A DNA stretch of 64,000 nucleotides from Amycolatopsis australiensis. Its GTDB lineage: Bacteria; Actinomycetota; Actinomycetes; Mycobacteriales; Pseudonocardiaceae. The notes under the pieces are model-generated. The model did no database searches and was not told the DNA's origin. It worked only from the letters and a program-made list of their open reading frames with translations. The translations under genes were made by a program, and so were the position numbers. This document shows, in pieces, positions 40,530-43,319 of the stretch. Numbering within the stretch: position 1 is the stretch's first letter; the number at the start of each line of letters is the position of its first letter. The stretch covers positions 6,324,001 through 6,388,000 of the forward strand of contig NZ_FPJG01000006.1 in NCBI RefSeq assembly GCF_900119165.1. The letters are read 5' to 3'.

Positions 40530-41633
40530 ATGACGGTGTGTCCGCAGTGGACGGTCGGGGCGGCGGGCCCGCCGGTGGGGCCGTTCGGTCTCGGCACGTC
40601 GGCGGCGCGGATCGGGACCCAGTTCGCCCCGGCGCCGGGGCCGGATCCGGCCTACGCGTACCTGCCGTGGGGTGACGGCAGCGCGTCGCCGTTGTACTGC
40701 CCCGTCCAGGGCCGCGTCGACGACAGCCTGGCCGCGGAAGTCGACCGGCGGCTGGTGGCGTGGGCGGCCGGCTGCGGCTTCACCGGCGAAGGCCTGGAGC
40801 AGATCGCGCGAGCCGGCTTCGGCAGGCTGGTCATGCTGGCCCACACCGACTGCGACGACCCCGACCGGCTGCTGGTCGCGGCCCAGCTGAACGCCACGTG
40901 GTGGGCGGCCGACGACTACTACGCCGACGACAGCACGCTCGGCGCGGCGCCCACCGAGCTCCCGCCGCGGCTGGCGCTCGTCATGGCGGCCATGGACCCG
41001 GTCGCGCCGGCCGGGGAGTTCACGGCCCCGCTGGAGGAGGCCCTGCGGTCGGACCCGATCCTGGTCGGGCTGCACTCGGCGATCGAGCACCTGGGCAGGC
41101 ACGGCTCGCCGGTGCTGGTGCAGCGCGTCTGCTACGCGACGTTCTCGATGTTCGTCAGCTGGGACGCCTACGCGGCGTGGCGTCACACCGGCCGCTACCC
41201 GCCGGCGTGGGAGTACCTGGCCGCACGTCAGCACGACAGCTTCTACACGTCGATGACGCTCGTCGACGCCGTCGGCGGTTACGAGCTGCCCGCGCCGTTC
41301 TACTACGACCCGCGCGTGCGGGCGGCGATGATGCGGGCCGGGACGGCGTCGGTGCTGGTCAACGACCTGCATTCGGTCGCGAAGGACGCGGCCGACGAGA
41401 AACCGGTCTGCAACATGGTGCTGCAGATCGCCGCCGACCGCGGCTGCCCGGTCGGCGAGGCGGTGGAGGCCACCGTCGACCTGCACAACCAGATCGTCCA
41501 CGAGTTCGAGGAGGGCCACCGGGAGCTGATGGCCGTGCCGTCCCCGGAGCTGCAGCGGTTCCTCGTGGGTGTCCGCTCGTGGATGGGCGGCGGCTTCACC
41601 TGGCACGCCACCAACCCGCGTTACCAGTCTTGA
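40530..41633 (+). CDS. 2-methylisoborneol synthase (terpene cyclase)
   Basis: A 367-residue class I terpene cyclase. The Asp-rich metal motif is D128-D-Y-Y-A-D-D134 and the NSE-type triad is N278-D-L-H-S282-V-A-K-D286. It cyclises 2-methyl-GPP to the earthy odorant 2-methylisoborneol. The first 60 residues are a Pro/Gly-rich disordered extension carrying GPFGLGTSAARI at residues 17-28. Such extensions are implicated in loading this enzyme into Family 2B encapsulins. ATG 40530 has GGGGAG seven bases before it; GTG 40512 would add six residues. It directly precedes two shell genes. Confidence 0.9.
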   Translation: MTVCPQWTVGAAGPPVGPFGLGTSAARIGTQFAPAPGPDPAYAYLPWGDGSASPLYCPVQGRVDDSLAAEVDRRLVAWAAGCGFTGEGLEQIARAGFGRLVMLAHTDCDDPDRLLVAAQLNATWWAADDYYADDSTLGAAPTELPPRLALVMAAMDPVAPAGEFTAPLEEALRSDPILVGLHSAIEHLGRHGSPVLVQRVCYATFSMFVSWDAYAAWRHTGRYPPAWEYLAARQHDSFYTSMTLVDAVGGYELPAPFYYDPRVRAAMMRAGTASVLVNDLHSVAKDAADEKPVCNMVLQIAADRGCPVGEAVEATVDLHNQIVHEFEEGHRELMAVPSPELQRFLVGVRSWMGGGFTWHATNPRYQS

Positions 41634-41673
41634 CCTTGTTCCGACCAATCCTCATCGATGGGTGGTTTTCGCT

Positions 41674-43080
41674 GTGACTGTGACCGACCCGGTGGAATCC
41701 GACGAGCAGGCGCCGTTGAGTTTGGGGCGGGCCGCGGCCCGGACGTTGGCGACGACGACGAAGTCGGTGCCGCAGATGCAGGGCATTTCCTCGCGGTGGC
41801 TGCTGCGGGTGCTGCCGTGGGTGGAGGTCTCGGGCGGCACCTACCGGGTGAACCGGCGCCTGTCGTATGCGGTCGGGGACGGGCGGGTCACGTTCACCTC
41901 GACCGGCAGCCAGGTGCGGGTGATCCCGCCGGAGCTGGGCGAGCTGGCCCCGCTGCGCGGGTTCGCCGACGAGGAAGTCCTGGCCGAGCTGGCCGACCGG
42001 TTCACCCAGGCCGAGTACCAGCCGGGGGACGCGCTGGTGGAGTTCGGGTCACCGGCCGATCAGGTGTTCCTGATCGCCCACGGCAAGATCAGCAAGGTCG
42101 GGACCGGCGCCTACGGCGACCAGACCGTGCTGGGCACCCTGGCCGACGGTGACTACTTCGGCGAAGCCGCCCTGCTCTCCGGCGAGGAGATCTGGGAGTT
42201 CACCGCCAAGGCCGTCACCGCCTGCACCGTGCTCACCCTGCCCCGGGCAGCGTTCGAGGACGTGCTGTCCCGCTCGGAAAACCTGCAGGCGCACCTGCAC
42301 GAATTCGCAGCACGCGGGTCGGGGGCCCGCAACGACCACGGCGAGGCGGAAATCGCGCTGGCCTCCGGACACGACGGGGAACCGGTCCTGCCGGGCACCT
42401 ACGTCGACTACGACGCCCAGCCACGGGAATACGAACTGTCGGTGGCCCAGACCGTGCTGCGGGTGCATTCCCGGGTGGCGGATCTGTACAACCAGCCGAT
42501 GAACCAGATCGAGCAGCAGCTGCGCCTGACCGTGGAAGCCCTGCGGGAACGACAGGAACACGAACTGATCAACAACCCCGGGTTCGGGTTGCTGCACAAC
42601 GCCGACTTCGCCCAGCGCATCCCCACCCGCACCGGCCCACCCACCCCCGACGACCTCGACGAACTGCTCGCGCTGGTGTGGAAAGACCCCGGGTTCTTCC
42701 TCGCCCACCCCAAAACCATCGCCGCGTTCGGCCGGGAATGCACCAAAGCCGGCATCTACCCCGACACGGTCGACCTCGGCGGCCACCAGATCCCGGCCTG
42801 GCGCGGCATCCCCATCCTGCCCTGCAACAAAATCCCCGTCACCGACACCCGCACCAGCTCCATCCTGCTGATGCGCACCGGCGAACAAGCCCAAGGCGTG
42901 GTCGGACTGCACCAAACCGGGCTCCCCGACGAATACCAGCCCGGCCTCAACGTCCGGTTCATGGGCATCTCCGACCAGGCCATCATCTCCTACCTCGTCT
43001 CCGCCTACTACTCCGCCGCCGTCCTCGTCCCCGACGCCCTCGCCATCCTCGAAGCCGCCGAACTCGGCCGCGAAAGCTGA
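41674..43080 (+). CDS. Family 2B encapsulin shell protein with cyclic-nucleotide-binding-like insertion (shell A)
   Basis: A 468-residue EshA-type protein. The N-arm LSLGRAAARTLATTTKS, the HK97-type P- and E-loop regions (PGTYVDYDAQPREYEL, TRTGPPTPDD) and the C-terminal A-domain strands (QIPAWRGIPILPCNKIP, AIISYLVSAYYSAAVLVPDA) define a Family 2 encapsulin. A cNMP-binding-like domain is inserted at residues about 92-210. Its phosphate-binding cassette keeps G163-E164 but lacks the usual Arg (EEIWEFTAKA), so nucleotide binding is doubtful. GTG 41674 has GGGTGG eight bases before it. The cargo is expected to be the adjacent terpene cyclase. Confidence 0.9.
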   Translation: MTVTDPVESDEQAPLSLGRAAARTLATTTKSVPQMQGISSRWLLRVLPWVEVSGGTYRVNRRLSYAVGDGRVTFTSTGSQVRVIPPELGELAPLRGFADEEVLAELADRFTQAEYQPGDALVEFGSPADQVFLIAHGKISKVGTGAYGDQTVLGTLADGDYFGEAALLSGEEIWEFTAKAVTACTVLTLPRAAFEDVLSRSENLQAHLHEFAARGSGARNDHGEAEIALASGHDGEPVLPGTYVDYDAQPREYELSVAQTVLRVHSRVADLYNQPMNQIEQQLRLTVEALRERQEHELINNPGFGLLHNADFAQRIPTRTGPPTPDDLDELLALVWKDPGFFLAHPKTIAAFGRECTKAGIYPDTVDLGGHQIPAWRGIPILPCNKIPVTDTRTSSILLMRTGEQAQGVVGLHQTGLPDEYQPGLNVRFMGISDQAIISYLVSAYYSAAVLVPDALAILEAAELGRES

Positions 43081-43085
43081 CCACC

Positions 43086-43319
43086 ATGCCCACACCCACC
43101 ACACCCCCACGCCCACCCGAACACCAGCCACCCCACCCCAGCACCGGCCTGCCCCCCTCGGCACACGGACCCACCGGACTCGGCACCACCGCCACCCGCA
43201 TCACCCCCACCCGCGCCAAACCCGAAACCGGCCAGCGGATCAATCCCGCCACGGTCCTCCCGCCAGCCACCACACCCACCGACGGCAAATCCCAGCCCGG
43301 CAGGCGGGTGGGCCCGTGA
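43086..43319 (+). CDS. 77-residue Pro/Thr-rich protein carrying the putative encapsulin-targeting motif
   Basis: A small, probably disordered protein lying between the two shell genes: six bases after the stop of shell A, with its own stop overlapping the GTG of shell B (GTGA). It has no folded-domain signature. Residues 28-39, GPTGLGTTATRI, match GPFGLGTSAARI in the N-terminal extension of the 2-methylisoborneol synthase at nine of twelve positions. A shell ligand, scaffold, cargo competitor or adaptor between cargo and shell is a reasonable hypothesis. The ribosome-binding site is weak, so translation is probably coupled to shell A. Confidence 0.75.
   Translation: MPTPTTPPRPPEHQPPHPSTGLPPSAHGPTGLGTTATRITPTRAKPETGQRINPATVLPPATTPTDGKSQPGRRVGP

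Follow-up and report, generated by a model that had tools for sequence, protein, structure and literature searches.

Here we describe a small open reading frame (ORF) in a 64,000-nucleotide stretch of the genome of Amycolatopsis australiensis (assembly GCF_900119165.1, contig NZ_FPJG01000006.1, positions 6,324,001 to 6,388,000; hereafter the window, with positions counted from its first letter). The ORF lies between two encapsulin shell genes and encodes a 77-residue protein sharing a short motif with the terpene synthase encoded upstream; it belongs to a real and apparently undescribed gene family. The genes follow the order methyltransferase, terpene cyclase, shell A, small ORF and shell B, and from the domains and the diagnostic motif we predict a two-component Family 2B encapsulin locus. 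Both shells show SrpI-like (PF19307) and cNMP-binding-like (PF00027) domains in the Pfam scan and exceed the 400-bit cut-off of the shell model NF041163, and at diagnostic motif 1 shell A reads LVWK, having VWK in common with the TVWK of Enc1, while shell B reads RRRK as in Enc2. The start codon of shell B and the stop codon of the small ORF overlap as GTGA. The locus comprises the following features:

39651..40502, + strand: geranyl diphosphate 2-C-methyltransferase gene (GPPMT); NCBIfam NF041943, 517 bits, cut-off 400
40512..41633, + strand: 2-methylisoborneol-synthase-like terpene cyclase, Family 2 encapsulin cargo; NCBIfam NF041167 (f2_encap_cargo2), 486 bits, cut-off 400; Pfam PF19086
40578..40613, + strand: N-terminal tag motif of the synthase, GPFGLGTSAARI; translation, one of two six-frame matches
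41674..43080, + strand: shell A, Enc1-type Family 2B encapsulin shell with N-terminal arm (N-arm) SLGRAAARTLATTTK; NCBIfam NF041163, 783 bits; translation; VWK at diagnostic motif 1
43086..43319, + strand: 77-residue enzyme-free tag protein; translation, homologous protein family, ratio of nonsynonymous to synonymous substitutions (dN/dS) 0.33
43167..43202, + strand: tag motif of the small protein, GPTGLGTTATRI; translation, one of two six-frame matches
43316..44704, + strand: shell B, Enc2-type Family 2B encapsulin shell; NCBIfam NF041163, 654 bits; translation; RRRK at diagnostic motif 1

The original prediction, made from the sequence of the window, held that the synthase and the small protein share a motif within disordered sequence and that this motif is a common ligand for the shell interior. 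The sharing is borne out, since GPFGLGTSAARI and GPTGLGTTATRI are identical at nine of twelve positions, the second spanning residues 28-39 of the ORF at 43086-43319 and the first residues 17-28 of the synthase when counted from the ATG at 40530, or 23-34 when counted from the upstream GTG at 40512 (loci L037 and L062 of relatives have no equivalent of this ATG, so that the upstream GTG seems to be their start). Across its six frames the window contains exactly two matches to the pattern GP.GLGT.A.R[IV], where composition predicts about 9e-5. When the first 60 residues of the synthase are compared with the small protein, the best 12-residue pairing has nine identities, a value that 0 of 2000 shuffles reached. 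These two results rule out a chance match of the two motifs. The disordered setting also stands on the side of the small protein, whose AlphaFold model contains no helix of four or strand of three residues (mean predicted local distance difference test score, pLDDT, 61.6; predicted template modelling score, pTM, 0.16), which is consistent with a disordered chain.

That the synthase is cargo, as had been proposed, agrees with its match to NF041167 and with its architecture, a cyclase domain together with a GPTGLGT-type tag (here reading GPFGLGT). A 2021 study (PMC8346489) names two possible targeting sequences: GPTGLGT, located in the N-terminal region of most 2-methylisoborneol-synthase-like cyclases, and GPTGLGTSAAR, which occurs at two positions in geosmin-synthase-like cyclases. 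Because the motif is printed there for Family 2B terpene cyclases, its presence in both proteins is naturally read as a common ligand for the shell. Within the literature searched the word GPTGLGT was found only in that paper, and the same search, which covers few subscription papers, found no small, accessory or scaffolding encapsulin protein. The motif has hence been published before, and it is only its enzyme-free carrier that appears to be new, in line with the earlier remark that a protein of this second kind was undescribed.

Conservation of the small ORF and of its motif had been named beforehand as the check on which the idea could fail; we ran it on the relatives and found both to be conserved. 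The 77-residue protein itself had 0 Pfam or NCBIfam matches at E <= 0.001, enzyme domains included. The gap between shell A and shell B in relatives holds ORFs of 51-87 codons with the tag, and a profile built from 15 of them (60 model positions) gave near-full-length matches (model 1 to 53-60 of 60) in 21 of 80 Amycolatopsis genomes, the window's own included, at E <= 6.6e-12, with a clear gap below these genomes (next match at E 1.9e-5); several weak matches coincide with the places of terpene synthases, and one of the weak matches (L121) belongs to the end of a cyclase frame. Only the window's own genome passes 1e-5 in a class-wide sample of 394 genomes with at most 16 candidates scored per genome, plasmid records gave 0 matches, and solved structures gave two weak matches only, both to a single designed variant, at E 0.028 and 0.038. 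Among database proteins, of which the 7983 candidates with the most words in common were scored, 38 match at E <= 0.01. The named members of the family are all called 'hypothetical' or 'uncharacterized' proteins and come from Amycolatopsis or metagenomes, with named records in A. rifamycinica, A. vastitatis and A. vancoresmycina. The targeting motif is present throughout, as GPTGLGT in 35 of 38 members and GPTGIGT in 3 of 38, where the 38 counted words include the window's own protein and exclude P0041. The latter, the 38th database match, is a doubtful metagenome ORF of 110 residues with two tag-like words, preceded by a word resembling a dinucleotide-binding glycine loop, and may be either a wrong frame or a multi-tag protein. 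The window copy is atypical in that its C-terminal half is longer than in the other aligned members.

The small gene is under purifying selection. Simple pairwise counts on these related sequences gave a dN/dS of 0.33 across 21 distinct small genes and of 0.27 in the 14-codon motif; the same DNA read in its two alternative frames gave 1.55 and 2.08. In the codon tables T, P, P, R and G, P, T, G, L, G, T are invariant, and third bases vary in all invariant codons except the second G of GLG. Three constrained blocks stand out in the wider set, TPPRxP, the tag and EPDRRVxP, so that more than the tag is being kept. The profile matches, the codon tables and the dN/dS values together rule out a non-coding or spurious ORF.

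The position of the gene ties it to the shells. In the relatives' loci its start codon lies -1 to +5 nucleotides from the stop of shell A, and in 16 of 17 loci with the order shell A, small gene, shell B its stop lies inside the start of shell B (as GTGA, ATGA or TTGA), the single exception being L090, which contains runs of N. From these overlapping or abutting ends we infer that the gene is expressed in step with both shells. L090 and L067 had also been considered as carrying broken shell genes, an idea dropped for both owing to their runs of N. Third-position skew towards C is strong in the shell genes of many genomes of the clade (41674-44704 in the window; L034-L067), with values of -0.68 in the window's shell B and -0.80 in shell A of L061, and mostly much nearer zero in adjoining enzyme genes; high expression is one guess as to its cause.

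The association with a particular cargo is looser. The same-genus loci were selected partly by gap length, and the cargo-type counts that follow are not frequencies: of the 17 loci with the small gene between the shells, 14 have a polyprenyl synthase downstream and 3 a methyltransferase and terpene synthase upstream, and of 23 two-shell loci without it, 16 have a polyprenyl synthase and 7 a terpene synthase. A tie to one cargo type is therefore unsupported, the gene being present in 14 of 30 polyprenyl synthase loci and 3 of 10 terpene synthase loci. The pairing of the small protein with this synthase, as originally proposed, keeps the motif common to both, but is weakened by the occurrence of the gene beside shell A with either cargo gene. 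At L062 the small gene still adjoins shell A, with no shell B next to it within the stretch examined. Taken with the occurrence beside either cargo type, this placement suggests that the small gene tracks the shell more than the enzyme, or so it seems. A quick tree built from 35 shell B proteins requires 8 changes to explain where the gene is present; dropping L058 and L125, where the contig stops at shell B, does not alter this number. This indicates that the gene has come or gone repeatedly. A by-eye look for genomes in which the small gene replaces a shell-linked synthase gave no clear pattern. In that tree the terminal branch of the window's shell B far exceeds all others in length (0.54, median 0.029), and the composition of this shell B is odd among the 35 relatives, as if constraint had changed.

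The own genome contains a second locus (L033, 8590000-8606000 of contig 6), which copies the shell A and small-ORF region at 97.9% identity over 1671 bp and has a polyprenyl synthase after it. One C differs there in a C-tract, so that the small ORF is frameshifted and its motif out of frame, and shell B is absent except for a possible C-terminal trace seen by eye. Elsewhere in this genome, 8808500-8812500 of contig 6 (L121) contains a cyclase frame, judged by eye to resemble geosmin synthase, that has a GPTGIGTSSLRI tag at its end. Both shell loci are more than 0.2 Mb away, and cargo may thus be encoded far from the shell. The window itself has a distant prenyl-synthase-like match on the + strand at about 59.7 kb, about 15 kb downstream of shell B. 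Outside the genus, none of 15 tandem-shell loci (L101-L115) carries a member of the small-gene family. At L115, from another genus of the same family, a Pro-rich ORF of 139 residues without the motif lies between the shells, its stop overlapping the start of the shell B match, and at L111 the inter-shell gap contains, around 5729-5758, the tag word GPIGLGTAAVRL in an open frame of 37 codons with no usual start codon before it. Twelve polyprenyl synthases encoded next to shells of other genera (one of them next to a single shell) all lack a long N-terminal domain at their likeliest start; the longest N-terminus among them, that of L116, measures some tens of residues.

Comparison of the tag with the shells themselves pointed to a possible binding place. 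Scanned along 120 shell homologues, the tag profile found its best window in the first 45 residues, that is in the N-arm, in 113; of the remaining 7, one has a displaced N-arm and six are taken as truncated or divergent N-termini. Column-shuffled profiles, run on every sixth shell, equalled that fraction in 27 of 1000 cases and the mean score in 10 of 1000. For the 38 shells from outside the genus the N-arm was best in 36 by rule (37 by eye), with shuffles reaching this in 3 of 1000. The mean best score was 8.0 at the N-terminal end of the 120 shells, compared with -1.3 (maximum 3.3) from residue 61 on, and 1.3 (maximum 7.6) on 43 polyprenyl synthase segments. In the reverse scan with an N-arm profile, the best window coincided with the tag in all 37 small proteins (mean 9.5 bits) and in 10 of 12 synthases (mean 4.0), and the best windows of tagless proteins averaged -2.0 in 41 polyprenyl synthases (maximum 9.8) and -7.9 in 9 methyltransferases. 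MAFFT, unprompted, aligned the tag of 25 of 25 small proteins onto the N-arm columns of the shells. The N-arm core reads LGRAAAR in 60 of the 120 shells, LSTAAAR in 13 and exactly LGTAAAR in 16. The solved chain of PDB 9bhu, which we take to be Sg Enc of Streptomyces griseus, a Family 2B shell with 2-methylisoborneol synthase cargo, reads SLGTAAARNLASTTK, with an exact LGTAAAR in its N-terminus, and the two S. lydicus shells have the N-arm words SLSTAAAR (9bje) and SLDTAAAR (9bix). This resemblance of the tag to the shell's own N-arm, with its LGTAAAR core, is suggestive and not proof. It bears on the proposal of a common ligand for the shell interior, of which the shared motif, printed as a proposed targeting sequence, is real, whereas the ligand may be the seat of the N-arm and not a purely luminal cargo groove.

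We favour, with about even confidence, a reading in which the 77-residue protein would be a tag-only accessory, free of any enzyme, that serves the two-component Family 2B shell and docks at tag sites predicted to be the seats of the N-arm. A published study describes, for the mixed shell of Streptomyces lydicus, a 23-residue N-arm seen in Enc1 only and at some of the Enc1-Enc1 two-fold pairs, never in Enc2 or in mixed pairs, and altering the two-fold pore (PMC12407261). Because ordered N-arms are thus reported on only some Enc1 and on no Enc2 protomers, we propose that seats are left free, and that a peptide with the N-arm core could take them. In this scheme the small protein would be made together with both shell proteins, would bind them through its GPTGLGTxAxRI motif at the sites used by cargo tags, and would fill or staple the free seats; the same seat-taking would serve the synthase as a loading tag and the small protein for filling, stapling or competition, with the effect that the mixed shell may be stabilised or closed and the number of seats left for tagged enzymes set. 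The small protein would likely occupy cargo-binding sites of the shell without bringing an enzyme. More tentatively, as a possibility we would not press, the Family 2B tag could be a copy of the shell N-arm; the small protein could then be the first protein dedicated to mimicking that arm, a staple or plug in vacant seats that tightens two-fold pores and sets the load of tagged enzymes.

Several observations weigh against this reading. No near-full-length profile match was found in 59 of the 80 genomes of the genus, and there are loci with both shells and no small gene (for example L054, L057, L059, L063 and L139), so that the gene is dispensable. Resemblance to the N-arm is by itself no rarity in GC-rich sequence: 276 six-frame windows that are neither shell nor tag by rule also reach at least 6 bits against the N-arm profile, some of them outscoring the tag, although these include at least one shell arm truncated at the end of its contig. 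The seat of the N-arm and the site of the cargo may also differ, since the Family 2A N-terminus is reported to extend outward (PMC8346489, in its accessible part) and Family 2A cargo density lies at the inner three-fold axis (PMC8049743). Finally, the model that AlphaFold built for a read-through from shell A into the L079 small protein was of poor quality (pTM 0.39; pLDDT below 50 in the tail), and it shows no confident docking.

The small protein could alternatively be a loading adaptor that carries an untagged polyprenyl synthase into the shell, with the tag on the shell and the TPPR or EPDRRVKP block on the enzyme; this would suit the polyprenyl synthase gene lying next in 14 of the 17 loci, the short and tagless N-termini of these synthases, the match of the L033 polyprenyl synthase to the encapsulin cargo model NF041169 (451.9 bits, cut-off 450), and the two conserved blocks besides the tag, which suggest a second partner. 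We nevertheless consider an adaptor rather unlikely, because 16 same-genus loci combine two shells and a polyprenyl synthase without the small gene, and because the polyprenyl synthases examined by tandem shells outside the genus are also tagless and no gene of the small family is found there. In addition, the gene also occurs in the terpene synthase loci of the window, L037 and L062, where the stretches examined contain no polyprenyl synthase relative of at least 50% identity (although the window has the distant prenyl-synthase-like match downstream of shell B), and it overlaps or abuts the shell genes, not the enzyme gene.

The small gene might instead be a relic, the leftover tag of a tagged cyclase that once stood between the shells, kept more for translational coupling than for its product. 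At L071 this slot is filled by a long frame for a cyclase that resembles geosmin synthase by eye; the frame carries a GPIGLGTSAARV tag, and a polyprenyl synthase lies downstream. TC/PT operons of this type are described in PMC12407261; the tag word without a usual start codon at L111 and the frameshifted copy at L033 point the same way. The dN/dS of 0.33, the invariant GPTGLGT and the conserved flanking blocks over 21 distinct genes show however selection on the product, which makes a mere relic improbable, with such an origin of the gene being possible. Quite improbable, too, is a decoy or competitor that would bind cargo seats mainly to limit the loading of tagged synthases, with no structural role. 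In its favour, the small protein has the same tag as the synthase and no enzyme, and tagged cyclases away from shells, as L121 in the own genome, could compete, to which the weak profile matches in other long frames may add more; the gene is however present in genomes G028, G045, G050, G052 and G120, which have no terpene synthase match at E <= 1e-60.

If an accessory of the shell that docks at N-arm seats is the right description, its interest lies in the question of cargo recognition, for which a luminal loop is named merely as a candidate in the case of Family 2B (PMC12407261, accessible part). A conserved, nearly tag-only protein encoded with both shells offers a ready-made probe for the recognition site, and the similarity between tag and N-arm indicates a specific place in which to search for it. 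Should cargo bind at the N-arm seat, closure of the shell, the state of its pores and its cargo load would all come down to a competition for one set of seats, and engineered shells would gain in this gene a natural off-switch or filler.

Small or disordered proteins that bind shell proteins by short motifs are known among phage scaffolding and decoration proteins and carboxysome linkers with encapsulation peptides, whose likeness to the small protein is by analogy only. In the Sg Enc system the 2-methylisoborneol synthase is reportedly loaded by its disordered N-terminal domain, and to our knowledge that system has a single shell and no small protein. The tag of Family 2B terpene cyclases (PMC8346489) is the same motif that is found in the N-terminus of the window synthase and in the small protein; the carriers known from the accessible text of that paper are nevertheless enzymes, whereas the small protein lacks an enzyme domain and its gene lies between the two shell genes. 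The Sl-Enc1/Sl-Enc2 system of Streptomyces lydicus (PMC12407261; 9bje, 9bix) likewise has a pair of adjacent shell genes, one with the Enc1 and the other with the Enc2 diagnostic motif, but no small protein is reported for it in the accessible part of the paper, while the window locus has one. In the TC/PT operon (L071; PMC12407261) a tag-bearing gene also lies between Enc1 and Enc2 with a polyprenyl synthase downstream; its inter-shell gene is a cyclase frame of 762 codons, whereas the small genes described here encode 51-87 residues and no enzyme.

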